Source: a virus. Taken from it: 30,323 nt of DNA. The stretch's first letter is position 1; every line of letters starts with the position of its first letter. The notes under the pieces were generated by a model, which was not told where the DNA came from, did no database searches, and saw only the letters and a program-made list of their open reading frames with translations. The position numbers and the translations under genes were made by a program. This document shows, piece by piece, positions 8,670 to 27,616 of the stretch. The stretch is taken from the IMG/VR virus record IMGVR_UViG_3300032116_000939, positions 1 through 30,323 of that record; one strand, given 5' to 3'.

Positions 8670-8924
8670 ATGAGAAACATACACGAAATCGCTAGTGAGA
8701 TTGAACAGAAGTGGACGCCCAAAGTTCATCCTTGGGCGCGGCCATATCTCGACGCTATGTCAACGCTCGAAAGCGTTAACGATAGCTATGGATGCGACGA
8801 TGCTCGCTCCATCATCAACTATTTCCTCAGCAATGCCACGATGTGGCGTGGTGAGGATGCTCGTAGGCTCAAGAAAGAACTGAAAGACATCATCAATGAA
8901 ACTCCTATCAGTCGGGTCAGATAG
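8670..8924 (+). CDS. Conserved small phage protein of unknown function (84 aa)
   Basis: Features are IASEIEQKW (residues 6-14), PYLDAM (25-30), SIINYFLSNATMWRGEDARR (47-66) and a Lys-rich C-terminal helix. The IxxEIxxxW...PYLxAM...YFLxNAxxWRGxDARRxK pattern is one I recognise from small uncharacterised proteins of phages from varied hosts. No catalytic residues are apparent. It overlaps the next gene by 29 nt, so the two are probably translated together. Confidence 0.75.
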   Translation: MRNIHEIASEIEQKWTPKVHPWARPYLDAMSTLESVNDSYGCDDARSIINYFLSNATMWRGEDARRLKKELKDIINETPISRVR

Positions 8925-9585
8925 CAAGACCACCAAGGGCGAGAGCTTTGGCTGGCGCACAGCCATCCTCTACCTTGCTCCTCACAAAGTTGCCCAGCGT
9001 GGCAACGTTTGTTCTCACGCATCGCGGGGCTGCATCTCGTCATGCCTTTACACAGCAGGACGTGGCGCATTCAGCAACGTGCAGCGTTCACGTATCAGCA
9101 AGACTCAATACTTCTTCGATGACCCAGCGGGTTTCCGCAAGCAACTCATCGAGGAGATCGAGGAGTTTGTCTGGCGCACAAACCATCACGGCATGGCTGC
9201 TTGCATTCGTCTCAATGGTACGTCTGACATTCCTTGGGAAGGGTTGCAAATTATGCAACAGTTCCCCAAGGACATCATGTTCTACGATTATACGAAGAAC
9301 CGTCATCGCGCCTTGCGTTTCGCTCGCGGCGAACTTCCGCCAAACTACCATCTAACCTTCAGCCGATCAGAGTGTAACGAGCTTGACGCTCTCAAGGTGT
9401 TGGAAGCTGGTGGCAATATTGCAGCCGTGTTCTCTGGTGATCTGCCTGACACTTGGTACGGCTACAACGTGATCAATGGTGACCTTTCAGACTTGCGATT
9501 CCTCGATCCTCGCGGCTGTGTCGTCGGCCTCAAGGCCAAGGGCGCAGCCAAGCGAGACACCTCAGGCTTTGTCATCCCCGTATAA
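8896..9585 (+). CDS. Gp88-family phage protein (229 aa)
   Basis: The N-terminal half fits the 'gene product 88' family known from mycobacteriophages and many other phages. It has an opening VGSDSKTTKGESFGW, then a cysteine cluster NVCSHASRGCISSCLYTAGR (Cys39, Cys46, Cys50), KTQYFF, and the hallmark RLNGTSDIPWE at about residues 105-115. The biochemical role of the family is not established. The three close cysteines suggest a metal or iron-sulphur site, which is inference. The start at 8896 lies inside the upstream gene with no SD; it is kept because the family motif begins soon after. Confidence 0.85.
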   Translation: MKLLSVGSDSKTTKGESFGWRTAILYLAPHKVAQRGNVCSHASRGCISSCLYTAGRGAFSNVQRSRISKTQYFFDDPAGFRKQLIEEIEEFVWRTNHHGMAACIRLNGTSDIPWEGLQIMQQFPKDIMFYDYTKNRHRALRFARGELPPNYHLTFSRSECNELDALKVLEAGGNIAAVFSGDLPDTWYGYNVINGDLSDLRFLDPRGCVVGLKAKGAAKRDTSGFVIPV

Positions 9586-13180: not shown

Positions 13181-13506
13181 GTGATACGCCAAGGACGGAT
13201 AAACAGGTGGAGTTGCACCGATTTGGACCCCGTCCGCTTAAGCTAGACGGACCTTTTGCTGACTTCGCTCGCGAGCTTGAGCGGGAAAACGCCGCGCTGC
13301 GGCGTTTGGCGGCGCATCGCGCTGTGGTCATCGAGCACCAAATGATGACGACTTCGTCGTACCAAATAACCCGCTTCACCGACGAAGACGAGAGTATCTG
13401 GGACGAGCGCGTTCAGCGATTTATGGACGCGGATCGTGCGATTATCAACGCCGCACGCGCCGAGGCGTTCTTGCGAACGATTGGCAAGTGGGAGGAGGCG
13501 AAATGA
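13177..13506 (+). CDS. MSDTPRTD-type coiled-coil cassette protein (109 aa)
   Basis: A GTG start overlaps the upstream TGA (GTGA), 11 nt after GGGGGTG. The protein opens MSDTPRTDK and has FARELERENAALRRLAAHR, a coiled coil matching the paralogue at 18210-18509, which opens MSDTPQTDE and contains LERENAAL twice. The two genes also share the nucleotide junction GGTGCGCTGTGAGTGATACG exactly. Small 'MSDTPRTD...LERENAAL' proteins are common and unexplained in phages. The 3' end carries the doubled SD used by the methyltransferase and its overlapping frame. Confidence 0.75.
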   Translation: MSDTPRTDKQVELHRFGPRPLKLDGPFADFARELERENAALRRLAAHRAVVIEHQMMTTSSYQITRFTDEDESIWDERVQRFMDADRAIINAARAEAFLRTIGKWEEAK

Positions 13507-14342
13507 CATGGATATTGCCCAAGCAATTACACACGTTAGCCTCTGCGCTGGATACGGAGGCATTGATCTCGGACTTAAACGAGCAATCTCAAATCTGCGG
13601 ACAGTCGCTTTTAGCGAGATCGAAGGTTTTGCCGTCGCGAACCTGGTTGCGAAAATGGAAGCGGGACGGCTGGACCCAGCACCTATCTGGTCGGATCTTA
13701 AAACCTTCCCTTGGGCCGAGTTTCGTGACCGCGTGGACGTCCTATCTGGAGGCTATCCGTGCCAGCCATTCAGCAGCGCAGGAAAGCGGAGAGGCAAAGA
13801 AGACCCAAGGCACTTGTGGCCGTGGATCGCAGACGGAATTCGAGCTATGCGGCCACGAATCTGCTTCTTCGAGAACGTCGAGGGACACATCAGCCTCGGA
13901 CTGCGAGAAGTCGTTGAAGAACTGGCAAGCATTGGTTACGCGACGACGTGGGGAATATTCAGCGCGGCTGAAGTTGGCGCACCGCATCAGCGAAAGCGAG
14001 TTTTCATCTTGGCCTACGGCGGCAGCGCGGGATTTTCGCGATACGGGGGATTTGAGCAAATCGGACTATCGAAAGGATGGCAAACTACGGAGGGATGTAC
14101 TACCCAGGGCTGTGGATTTGGATCGGAGAGGGTATTTTGGCCTAGTCGTCCCGGACAACCACAATACAAATGGGAGCCGCCTAGGGTCATTGAACCCGCG
14201 CTGGGTAGAGACATTGATGGGCCTCCCGGTGGGCTGGGTTATGCCGAGTTGTGCCGCTCCTGCGACAATCGCACCGACGAACTGCGGCTCCTCGGAAACG
14301 GAGTCGTCCCCGCCACCGCTGAACGAGCGTTCAAAACTTTAA
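13503..14342 (+). CDS. Long protein in an alternative frame over the methyltransferase (279 aa)
   Basis: It starts at an ATG that overlaps the upstream stop as ATGA and lies behind GGAGGAGG (13491-13498). The frame stays open for 279 codons, ending 17 nt before the methyltransferase stop. It contains SSWPTAAARDFRDTGDLSKS (168-187), YRKDGKLRRD and LNPRWVETLMGLPVGW (230-245). The WPTxxARDxxD...KDG...LNPxWVExLMGxPxGW series is a pattern I recall from phage proteins near DNA methyltransferases. This suggests a real product made from the same DNA as the methyltransferase rather than chance. The function is unknown. A chance open frame cannot be excluded without conservation analysis. Confidence 0.5.
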   Translation: MTWILPKQLHTLASALDTEALISDLNEQSQICGQSLLARSKVLPSRTWLRKWKRDGWTQHLSGRILKPSLGPSFVTAWTSYLEAIRASHSAAQESGEAKKTQGTCGRGSQTEFELCGHESASSRTSRDTSASDCEKSLKNWQALVTRRRGEYSARLKLAHRISESEFSSWPTAAARDFRDTGDLSKSDYRKDGKLRRDVLPRAVDLDRRGYFGLVVPDNHNTNGSRLGSLNPRWVETLMGLPVGWVMPSCAAPATIAPTNCGSSETESSPPPLNERSKL

Positions 14343-14359
14343 TTAAAGACCTAGAATGA
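13508..14359 (+). CDS. DNA (cytosine-5) methyltransferase (283 aa)
   Basis: It transfers a methyl group from S-adenosylmethionine to cytosine C5, probably protecting phage DNA from host restriction. All core motifs are in one frame: motif I SLCAGYGGIDLGL (11-23), motif IV GGYPCQPFS with catalytic Cys85, motif VI ENV (122-124), motif VIII QRKRVFI (161-167) and motif X-type LLGNGVVP (261-268). The target-recognition part between VIII and IX is short. No partner endonuclease is seen. The start is ATG 13508, five bases after the start of a second frame; it may share the doubled SD. The stop overlaps the helicase start (ATGA). Confidence 0.93.
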   Translation: MDIAQAITHVSLCAGYGGIDLGLKRAISNLRTVAFSEIEGFAVANLVAKMEAGRLDPAPIWSDLKTFPWAEFRDRVDVLSGGYPCQPFSSAGKRRGKEDPRHLWPWIADGIRAMRPRICFFENVEGHISLGLREVVEELASIGYATTWGIFSAAEVGAPHQRKRVFILAYGGSAGFSRYGGFEQIGLSKGWQTTEGCTTQGCGFGSERVFWPSRPGQPQYKWEPPRVIEPALGRDIDGPPGGLGYAELCRSCDNRTDELRLLGNGVVPATAERAFKTLIKDLE

Positions 14360-24634: not shown

Positions 24635-27616
24635 TTAGAGGGATTTGATGCGGCTATCCATCCACTTGCGGATGAGGTTCTTGATGCGCGGTTTATCGCT
24701 GATCCACTCAGCAAAGCGTTCACCGTACATCTCGTAGAGCTTAACAAACCAGTTGGGAGCCTTAGTGTACAGCCATTCACGGAAGGCAAGCCACATGGGG
24801 TTGTGATCGCCATACACCTCGCGAGCCACCCAGCAGCCAAGCAAATTACCAATGCCTTGATAGATGCCAGCAGCGCGAGCACCTTGAGCACCAGCCCGAG
24901 CACCAAAAGTAGCAGCCTGATAGTTGCCAAGGTTGGCAGCGTTCTGGAGAGCGAGGTTAACACCAGCGTCGGGGCTAAACACCTGACCACCCATCTGAGC
25001 CATCATACCAGCCGCCATACCCTGCTGCTGCTGACCCACGCCCAGCGCACCGGACGGACGACCCAGCACCGTAGCCATTGGGTCAAACGCCGCACCATAC
25101 ATTCCAACGAGGTTCTGTTGGAAGGCGCGGTTAGCAGCTAGTTCGCCCTGCTGGGCCTGACCAAGAAGGCCAAGATTACCAATGTTCTGCTGCTGTTGAG
25201 CGGCTTGGAAGGCGCGATTCTGTAAAGCAGTACTAGTAGCCTGCTCGGCATTAAACAGCCCAAACTGATTGCTAGCGGCTTGGTTAGCCATAGCCGCACG
25301 AACGGCGACATCCTGATTAGATAGTTGGCCCTGAGCGGCAAGGCCAGCCCCAAACTGTGCGGCTTGGTTTACGGCACTCATGTTGGCCAAGCCAAACTGG
25401 TTTTGCGCAGCCTGATTAGCAGCAGCCTGTTGCAGGAATGCCTGCATATTGGCTAGTTGGCCTTGATTGGACGCCTCTGCTCCAAATCTACGCGACTCCT
25501 GCAACGCCTGCATATTAGCCAGTCCAAACTGATTGGACGCCGCTTGATTGGACAAGCCATACTGCCCTAGCAATGCCTGATTGGCCAAGGCAATTTGATT
25601 TTGCGCGGCTTGATTAGCCTGAGCAAATTGCGCCTCAGTTTGCGCGTTAAACTGCCCTGCCTGCATTTGCGCTGCCTGATTGGCCATGGCAAAACGAGCC
25701 ATCTGATCGGCGTTAGCCAGCGAAACGGCATTCTGCGCCCCGGCACCAAACTGACCGGATTGGTTAAGTGCAGCAGCATTAGCCAAATTGATCTGGGCCT
25801 GCGTAGCCTGATTAGCCAAAGCAAACTGAGCAGCCTGCTGGGCGTTAGCCATAGCAGCAGCATTCTGTGCAGATGCGCCAAATTGACCAGCCTGATTAAG
25901 GGCACCTACGTTAATCCCAGCAGCCGCAAGCTGAGCCTGCTGATTGGCCAAGTCAAACTGGGCCATGCGCTCAGCGTTAACCATTGCCGCCTGATTGCTG
26001 GCCGTAGCCCCAAATTGTGCAGCCTGATTGCCAGCAGCCATGTTAGCCGCAGCCATCTGATTCTGTGAGGCTTGGTTAGCTTGAGCAAACTGCGCGGCCA
26101 ATTGAGCCTGATTGGTTGCGGCTTGATTTGCAGCACCAGCACCAAAAAGCGCAGCCTCATTCTGAGCCGCAGCACCAAACTGAGCCGCCTGTTGCGCAGC
26201 CTGCTGGTTGGCCAGCGAAAGCTGCGTACCAACACCTTGATTAGCCAAAGCAGCCTGCAACCCAGCCTGCTGATTGGCCTGCTGGAGGGCAACATCCTGA
26301 CCAAGCACTCCGGTGGCGAATCCACGACTAGCCCCAAGATCCGCAAGGTAGGCTTGGTTAAGCGCAGAAGCCTGTTGAATGTCCTGAGCCTGACGCTGGC
26401 GAACAGCATCAGCACGGCTCATTGCCTCGGCGGCAATGGCCTGATTGCTCATTTCTAGGCCGCGAGCAGCAAAAGCCTCACGGGTAGATTGCTGAGCATT
26501 ACGCAGTTCCTCTGGCGACAGTTGGCCCGTAGAAGTAGCCATCTGAGCCGCACGTTGACGGAAGGTTTCGGAGGCAGACGTAGGACCAGCCTGCATTGCC
26601 TGCCCGTATAGCTGCTGTCCAAGAGCACCCTGACCCAACTGCTGCGCGGAAACGCCGCCAACCCCAGCAGCCTGCTGGCCTTGGAACCCCTGCGCCGTAT
26701 ACCCCTGAGAAGCAATAGTGGGGGCCGCGCCCAACATAGCAGCACTACCGCGCTCAGCCTGATAGCCCTGCTGAGCAACCATAGGCGCAGCACCAAGGAG
26801 TGGGATAGCTGCCTGAGCGGCCTGATAGCCTTGCGCCGCCACAGTAGGAGCAGCACCAAGAGACGGAGCACTAGCTTGGGTAGCAGAATACCCTTGAGCC
26901 GTAGCCTGTGGGGCTGCTCCAAGGGTGGATGCCTGCATTGTCGGTGCTGCACCAAGGAGTGAAGCCTCTGCTTGGGGAGCCGCGCCAGCCATAGTGGCCT
27001 GACCCTGCGCCGCCTCAAAACCCGTCAGACTTACAGGCGTAACCTTTTCTTGAAGAACTGCCGTACCTTCGCGAGCTTGATAGCCCTTCAGATCCACCTT
27101 GGGCATTTCGCCCAAGAGAGCGGCCTGAGCCGAGGTTGGCGCAACGTCTCCGTAGCGGATGGAATTTTTTATGGCATCCTGCAAACCACCAAAGAAGTCT
27201 GTCTTTCCGCCCATTTCCCGCGCAACCTCAAGCTGGTTGAACATCTGCGGGTTGGCCTTCATCAAGGCAGACAGGTAGCCACCGCTCTGAGACTGGAGGG
27301 CGCGAATATCCGCATCGCGTTGCGCTGCGTCAGCAATTTCCTGAGCCTTTACAAGATCAGGGGTGATCTGCTTGAGAATATCAATTGCGCCAGCCTGTCC
27401 CGGCTTGCCCTCCGTGCCGGGAACTCCGCGAAGATACTGCTCCTGCTCAGCTAGGTTAAGGGCGGTATACTGCGGACGAAACTCCTTTTCAGAAGCGAGA
27501 ATCTTACCCTGCAATGCAGGGTCAGCCATTGCATTAATGTAGTCAATGGACGCCTTGCCAGGATCAACAGGCGCGGGTGCTGGAGGCGGAGCAGATATTG
27601 ATGTTTTAAAGCACAT
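24635..27616 (-). CDS. Repeat-rich virion protein with conserved C-terminal domain (993 aa)
   Basis: The MCFKTSISAPPPAPAPV start is typical of a group of phage virion proteins. Residues 1-200 are mixed helical. Residues 210-310 carry LGAAP...QGY repeats, residues 440-790 an Asn/Ala/Gln-rich 11-residue-periodic region, and residues 927-993 a compact Trp-rich domain (CWVAREVYG, MWLAFREWLY, WFVKLYEMYGERFAEWI), a recurrent phage C-terminal module. The repeat part should form a long rod of helix, able to reach along or through the tail or cell wall. It overlaps the upstream gene by 11 nt with no SD. Confidence 0.75.
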   Translation of the reverse strand: MCFKTSISAPPPAPAPVDPGKASIDYINAMADPALQGKILASEKEFRPQYTALNLAEQEQYLRGVPGTEGKPGQAGAIDILKQITPDLVKAQEIADAAQRDADIRALQSQSGGYLSALMKANPQMFNQLEVAREMGGKTDFFGGLQDAIKNSIRYGDVAPTSAQAALLGEMPKVDLKGYQAREGTAVLQEKVTPVSLTGFEAAQGQATMAGAAPQAEASLLGAAPTMQASTLGAAPQATAQGYSATQASAPSLGAAPTVAAQGYQAAQAAIPLLGAAPMVAQQGYQAERGSAAMLGAAPTIASQGYTAQGFQGQQAAGVGGVSAQQLGQGALGQQLYGQAMQAGPTSASETFRQRAAQMATSTGQLSPEELRNAQQSTREAFAARGLEMSNQAIAAEAMSRADAVRQRQAQDIQQASALNQAYLADLGASRGFATGVLGQDVALQQANQQAGLQAALANQGVGTQLSLANQQAAQQAAQFGAAAQNEAALFGAGAANQAATNQAQLAAQFAQANQASQNQMAAANMAAGNQAAQFGATASNQAAMVNAERMAQFDLANQQAQLAAAGINVGALNQAGQFGASAQNAAAMANAQQAAQFALANQATQAQINLANAAALNQSGQFGAGAQNAVSLANADQMARFAMANQAAQMQAGQFNAQTEAQFAQANQAAQNQIALANQALLGQYGLSNQAASNQFGLANMQALQESRRFGAEASNQGQLANMQAFLQQAAANQAAQNQFGLANMSAVNQAAQFGAGLAAQGQLSNQDVAVRAAMANQAASNQFGLFNAEQATSTALQNRAFQAAQQQQNIGNLGLLGQAQQGELAANRAFQQNLVGMYGAAFDPMATVLGRPSGALGVGQQQQGMAAGMMAQMGGQVFSPDAGVNLALQNAANLGNYQAATFGARAGAQGARAAGIYQGIGNLLGCWVAREVYGDHNPMWLAFREWLYTKAPNWFVKLYEMYGERFAEWISDKPRIKNLIRKWMDSRIKSL
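25247..26296 (-). repeat. 11-residue (33-bp) periodic repeat region in the 993-aa protein
   Basis: Words such as NQAAQFGA, LANQAAQ and NQFGLAN recur at steps of 11 residues. Two 44-residue blocks (from LNQAGQFGASA and LNQSGQFGAGA) align exactly at four steps. An 11-residue step equals three helical turns and points to a hendecad-type coiled coil. The DNA copies have diverged, so this is an old expansion. Confidence 0.65.
26687..26989 (-). repeat. LGAAP...QGY repeats (11- and 21-residue steps)
   Basis: LGAAP at about residues 221, 232, 253, 274 and 295 of the 993-aa protein, with GAAP at 211. The last four are spaced 21 residues apart and each is followed by a QGY seven or so residues on. This block lies before the 11-residue region and may be a flexible beta or polyproline-like linker. 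Confidence 0.6.

Follow-up and report, generated by a model that had tools for sequence, protein, structure and literature searches.

The locus described here lies in a virus record 30,323 bases long, which is a fragment of a phage and also encodes a terminase, an exonuclease and a DnaB-like helicase; "the window" denotes this whole stretch of DNA at its full length. About 840 bases of the window are open in two frames on the same strand and carry two genes, termed alpha and beta. The features of the locus are:

13508 to 14359, plus strand: alpha, C5-cytosine methyltransferase catalytic subunit, 283 amino acids plus stop
13503 to 14342, plus strand: beta, putative second subunit, +1 relative to alpha, 279 amino acids plus stop
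13491 to 13510, plus strand: shared initiation region with the sequence GGAGGAGG-CGAA-ATGAC-ATG, twinned starts conserved
14010 to 14186, plus strand: variable recognition-like segment of the WPT(P)xARD type, primary coding frame beta
14187 to 14243, plus strand: DNA for motif IX in beta (SLNPRWVETLMGLPVGWVM, beta residues 229-247), the most conserved beta segment
14343 to 14356, plus strand: alpha-only tail past the beta stop, serving as internal negative control

Both open reading frames were found where an earlier reading of this DNA, made from the sequence only, had placed them. Alpha extends from an ATG at 13508 to a last codon ending at 14356 and is closed by TGA (14357-14359), and beta extends from an ATG at 13503 to a last codon ending at 14339 and is closed by TAA (14340-14342). 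Beta starts 5 nt ahead of alpha and finishes 17 nt sooner, measured at the ends of the last codons. An upstream GTG at 13488 is a possible alternative start, which would add five amino acids to beta. Among the neighbours tested around the locus, no restriction enzyme was recognised. Elsewhere in the window, a 993-aa protein (24635-27616, minus strand) is very rich in NQAAQFGA-like repeats of Ala, Gln and Asn and has no PHROG match, and a 229-aa protein (8896-9585, plus strand) is a strong member of phrog_1617 (1.6e-69), a phage family of unknown function.

Alpha contains the C5-methyltransferase motifs I (LCAGYGGIDLGL), IV (GGYPCQPFS, with PCQ and Cys85), VI (ENVEGH, with ENV and Glu122), VIII (HQRKRVF, matching QxRxR) and X (LLGNGVVP, matching GNxVxP) in one chain. 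The sequence-only reading had assigned the same five motifs to this frame. Its list lacked motif IX, and this omission turned out to be the key to the finding, as motif IX and the target-recognition domain, expected in the same chain as the catalytic motifs, are absent from the alpha frame and present in that of beta. Alpha matches phrog_363 (3e-56) and the Pfam family PF00145 (5e-34), the latter only over profile positions 2-161 of 324. The AlphaFold model of alpha has a confident core, for which Foldseek returned M.HaeIII and M.HhaI as top matches, and is mostly disordered at residues 184-252; the disorder extends over most of the recognition-like segment.

Beta consists of an N-terminal part that lies over the catalytic core of alpha, followed by SSWPTAAARDFRDTGDLSKSDYRKDGK in the recognition-like segment and then by motif IX, with LNPRWVETLMGLPVGW as its most conserved block. 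A search against phage proteins, which had been proposed for the 279-aa product, placed it in a recognised family, phrog_1008 (phage 'DNA methyltransferase'; 7.6e-15, beta residues 77-185 on profile positions 37-150). No match to beta was detected in Pfam and NCBIfam or in a profile search of the PDB, and the AlphaFold model of beta alone is of low confidence (mean pLDDT 55). The WxTP-type modules of the recognition-like segment differ in copy number, with one (WPTA) in the window and up to four in relatives under a strict pattern. The window module ARDFRDTGDLSKSDYRKDGK resembles ARGWKDYGDLSKTFYRKDGK from the E. coli phage Bas75, which indicates that modules can be common to distant phages. 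In one locus (L079, 3004-4728), beta comprises 575 aa with about eight WxTP-type modules, as counted by eye, and alpha is open for 586 codons, so that the dual-coded stretch reaches up to 1.7 kb; this beta is possibly a multi-specificity recognition array.

A second frame of this length could be an artefact, open by chance or codon bias, with its similarity among relatives being a shadow of alpha conservation. As a null model, we redrew the synonymous codons of alpha at random. For the window gene, the beta frame remained open in 0.03-0.08% of redraws, with about six stops expected. Long open frames do therefore occur by chance, and the probability near 1e-5 that had been put forward from the sequence is too strong. 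It is the comparative test that settles whether the second frame is real.

Two overlapping sets of viral contigs were collected by tblastn with alpha and with beta, and duplicates were removed. This revealed 113 loci with both frames in which beta is, at the start, in +1 relative to alpha. Both frames were open to 120 nt or less from the common end in 100 of these loci, the remainder being mostly contig ends or single indels; one frame was broken by an indel or early stop in six of the 113. Conservation was tested on 90 representatives with less than 85% identity. Beta identity amounted to 55% between the window and each representative and 58% between random pairs, compared to 30% under the null model. 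Homologous genes with frequent stops in the second frame, which would have refuted double coding, were not seen: the aligned beta frame contained 126 stops, compared to a null mean of 523 and a minimum of 481. Except for a single stop at column 1, all of them (125) fall within columns 259-282, which is beta's own C-terminus.

The third base of an alpha codon is the second codon position of beta, and fourfold-degenerate third bases of alpha were identical in 64.5% of comparisons (null 28.7%). This conservation collapses at the end of beta: over alpha codons 266-283, the last 18 and mostly past the beta end, fourfold third-base identity was 35.7% (null 28.7%). In random pairs, beta exceeded the synonymous-resampling null in every region. 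The DNA that spells GRDIDGPPGGLGYAE in one frame was confirmed to spell ETLMGLPVGWVMP in the other, an exact correspondence that had been pointed out before. Alpha and beta are thus both open over their full length and both under selection, as had been suspected for two full-length constrained proteins encoded by one stretch. The artefact explanation is already refuted by these data, and relatives with an internal beta start, in which the +1 frame is constrained only from that start, stand against it as well.

In the initiation region, GGAGGAGG (13491-13498) holds two Shine-Dalgarno registers, with a GGAGG 7 nt before the beta ATG and a GGAGG 9 nt before the alpha ATG, which bears out the suggestion that starts 5 nt apart are each offered a suitable Shine-Dalgarno sequence. 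The TGA of the upstream gene (13504-13506) overlaps the beta ATG as ATGA, and coupling by termination and re-initiation is therefore also possible. Among the 90 representatives, twinned starts occur as ATGACATG in 44 and as ATGTG in 33, and a Shine-Dalgarno-like word lies upstream of them in 47 of the 90, the window included.

Two architectures can be distinguished. In the window's clade, beta spans the whole gene, the start codons lie 2-11 nt apart, and constraint is seen from the first alpha codons onward; a sister group has the start ATGAATGAG, with beta 4 nt after alpha. Many relatives, e.g. the Paenibacillus phages Lily and Bloom, have the beta start about 55-67 codons inside alpha. Upstream of this start, conservation of their +1 frame does not exceed that under the null, and stops are more frequent than the null predicts, whereas downstream of the start the frame is strongly constrained and contains almost no stops. 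Because constraint begins only at the internal start of beta, these relatives provide a built-in negative control. A quick tree of the catalytic core, based on a short search, with some open forks and unrooted, grouped the full-length-overlap forms and, a few exceptions aside, separated them from those with an internal start. This is most simply explained by a 5' extension of beta across the SAM-binding region in one lineage; as the tree is unrooted, it remains possible that the other lineage lost this part.

The identification of the beta block LNPRWVETLMGLPVGW as motif IX rests on in-frame equivalents in single-chain relatives. Two loci (L278 and L364) carry LNPDWVEWLMGYPISW / LNAKFVEYMMGLPEGW in frame shortly ahead of motif X, and two metagenome-assembled genomes, from Pelosinus (L412) and Myxococcales (L442), encode one chain with motifs I-VIII, WPTP-type modules and then LNPDWVE. 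On the DNA, the motifs keep the order of ordinary enzymes, with IX between VIII and X, and the change is confined to the reading frame.

Substitution patterns by codon position were analysed in 649 close pairs, which are not independent of each other. In the catalytic core, alpha position 3 was the most variable, and the non-synonymous fraction was 0.40 for alpha versus 0.78 for beta. From motif VIII to IX, beta position 3 was the most variable instead, with fractions of 0.81 for alpha versus 0.69 for beta, and at motif IX both proteins were constrained. Divergence at alpha position 3 was 0.589 in the tail, an ordinary single-frame pattern, versus 0.217 in the core. The primary coding frame therefore switches from alpha to beta between motifs VIII and IX; the direction of this switch is clear, even with pairs that are not independent. 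As the codon-position pattern flips after motif VIII, the recognition-like segment belongs to beta.

Beta, although real, might be independent in function, e.g. a DNA-binding, anti-restriction or regulatory protein that is merely encoded over a methyltransferase. Such a role would fit its unknown fold and its long N-terminal part, which is 72% identical over columns 1-60 and has, over about 160 residues, no counterpart in the single-chain relative from Pelosinus. We regard independence as improbable, since beta holds exactly the motif that alpha lacks, properly placed between VIII and X, since no beta was found without an overlapping or fused methyltransferase among the 80 genome-contig matches, and since natural in-frame single chains exist. 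The sequence-only reading had likened the beta motifs to those of proteins next to phage methyltransferases. Beta is very probably no such independent protein but the missing part of the methyltransferase, comprising the recognition segment and motif IX.

The same in-frame single chains could also point to a programmed +1 frameshift by which beta is reached from alpha, yielding an alpha-beta fusion and no free beta. Frame and order would permit a product with motifs I-VIII, recognition segment and motif IX in line. This is even harder to reconcile with the data and appears very improbable, as selection on the beta frame runs from beta's own start, which lies ahead of that of alpha in the window's clade, and begins at the internal start in the other clade; if beta were made by frameshifting, there would be no need to preserve the beta-frame codons further upstream. 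Moreover, motif X of alpha is in frame 0 after motif IX, and two shifts would be needed.

Hundreds of related sequences from viruses and prophages keep the dual-frame arrangement. Of 97 scorable cases in a frame-blind scan of viral contigs for the DNA of motif IX, 94 had it in +1 relative to a methyltransferase, two in frame and one in +2. A profile of the whole beta core was dropped, as it matched the +1 frame of every methyltransferase, in which the shadow of alpha motifs can score alone. A profile of motif IX only, used in its place, gave 317 matches in +1, 4 in frame and 8 in +2 over all loci, with methyltransferase ORFs cut by a contig end left out. In a single scan of bacterial and archaeal genomes, motif IX was found in +1 in 77 of 80 contigs, with two in-frame single-chain relatives and one in +2. 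The proposed search for the 279-aa family away from a methyltransferase remained without result: no beta without an overlapping or fused methyltransferase was detected among the 80 genome-contig matches, as expected of a subunit. A plasmid search with the Bloom beta returned five records only. Relatives are also present in laboratory E. coli phages of the BASEL collection (Bas71 and Bas75-Bas80), Bas75 and its kin showing the +1 arrangement as well, which makes the idea of a split enzyme directly testable.

Several loci deserve mention in their own right. Two contigs binned as marine archaea (L381 and L391, Poseidoniaceae MAGs) show the +1 arrangement with beta open along nearly all of alpha. 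A minus-strand locus (L184) encodes an in-frame fusion, in which the alpha N-terminus up to motif IV is joined directly to beta and motifs VI and VIII are lost; this looks like a deletion that collapsed both frames. In four loci (L055, L062, L074 and L075), an indel after motif VIII puts alpha out of frame with its motif X, and these are either degenerate genes or sequencing errors. In Mycobacterium phage Jinglebell (L167), the alpha frame is broken, and two minus-strand hypothetical genes are annotated where close relatives have the C5-methyltransferase.

With some reservation, we favour the view that this is a large and ancient family of phage and prophage C5-methyltransferases that is consistently dual-coded, one frame serving catalysis and the other DNA recognition. 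The overlap would have come to span the entire gene in a single clade, by overprinting of a new beta N-terminus on the SAM-binding region, resulting in twinned starts. WPTPxARD-type modules, from one to about eight copies, would have been gained and lost with both frames open, over stretches of up to 1.7 kb.

For the locus itself, we are confident that it encodes one split C5-cytosine DNA methyltransferase with its halves in two frames, with translation, assembly, methylation and anti-restriction being inferred. This reading is supported by the absence of motif IX from alpha, the end of the Pfam match at position 161, the disorder at residues 184-252 and the beta block LNPRWVETLMGLPVGW taken together. 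M.EcoHK31I, with motif IX on its small polypeptide, provides a precedent (PMC3404938). Alpha would contribute S-adenosylmethionine binding, the catalytic residues Cys85 and Glu122 and motif X, while beta would provide motif IX together with the target-recognition segment, by which the small DNA-binding domain is formed and anchored. Both halves may be translated from one mRNA at a linked ratio, by way of twin starts on one ribosome-binding site, and may assemble 1:1 into one enzyme. The inferred function of this enzyme is site-specific methylation of the phage genome, for which escape from host restriction is the most plausible reason. The open, conserved and selected state of both frames, the motif partition, the frame switch and the in-frame single-chain equivalents were computed; it is by inference that beta is translated, that a complex forms and methylates DNA with sequence specificity, and that the phage benefits. 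Several points speak against a split enzyme: beta alone has no confident fold, and its roughly 160 N-terminal residues, missing from the Pelosinus single chain, have no assigned role; the predicted recognition domain of M.EcoHK31I is, as published, on the large subunit and here seemingly in beta; and, finally, six of 113 loci are broken in one frame and the 649 pairs behind the frame switch are not independent.

It is rare for two long conserved proteins to overlap completely on the same strand, and one member of such a pair is usually dropped in automatic annotation. A widespread enzyme class may therefore have half of its protein missing from databases or labelled hypothetical. As the products are seemingly halves of one enzyme, the overlap ties together catalysis, specificity, expression ratio and inheritance. 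The family offers a large natural data set on the joint evolution of two proteins from shared DNA. It also presents a recognition array for phage DNA methylation that can be expanded, and a natural system in which twinned start codons can be tested.

Several known systems share individual features with this locus. Ambiguous starts, at which one Shine-Dalgarno sequence opens two frames, have been described for Thermus rnpA-rpmH (AUGGAUG) and for AUGUG and GUGUG in E. coli (PMC9841429). As in these sites, two conserved starts lie here a few nucleotides apart behind a Shine-Dalgarno sequence; unlike in those cases, the two products are seemingly components of a single enzyme, and they overlap over the full gene length. 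M.AquI (CYCGRG) is likewise a C5-methyltransferase made of two polypeptides, with motifs I-VIII on the first and IX-X on the second (PMC3404938), whereas in the present locus alpha retains motif X and the two parts overlap. A report on a reverse transcriptase encoded in three frames (PMC8008677) was rejected as a precedent, as it does not concern a methyltransferase. In the open-licence literature, we found no paper on widespread overlapping phage methyltransferase subunits, which is weak evidence of novelty.

The pairs gp62/gp63 of Paenibacillus phage Lily ('g62 internal gene') and gp56/gp57 of Bloom have the same +1 overlap with a beta that matches phrog_1008, and their annotation names either an internal gene or two cytosine methyltransferases. 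They differ from the window in the start of beta, which lies about 61-67 codons into alpha and leaves a beta of 163 aa in Lily, and in that their clade shows no +1 constraint upstream of this start.

The closest precedent is M.EcoHK31I (YGGCCR), the small polypeptide of which is encoded in an alternative frame inside the gene of the large one. In this two-polypeptide C5-methyltransferase, the large polypeptide carries motifs I-VIII and X together with the predicted target-recognition domain, and the small one carries motif IX (PMC3404938). The motif partition is the same here. The recognition-like segment, in contrast, belongs to beta by its substitution pattern and not to the large subunit, beta covers all of alpha with starts 5 nt apart, and the locus belongs to a phage genome in which none of the neighbours tested was recognised as a restriction enzyme. 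Because the target-recognition assignment differs, and because subunit homology and two-protein activity are unproven, we do not file the locus as a member of the M.EcoHK31I system. What is new compared to M.EcoHK31I, with expression and activity being inferred, is the breadth of the arrangement, the full-length overlap, the twinned starts and the recognition segment in beta.
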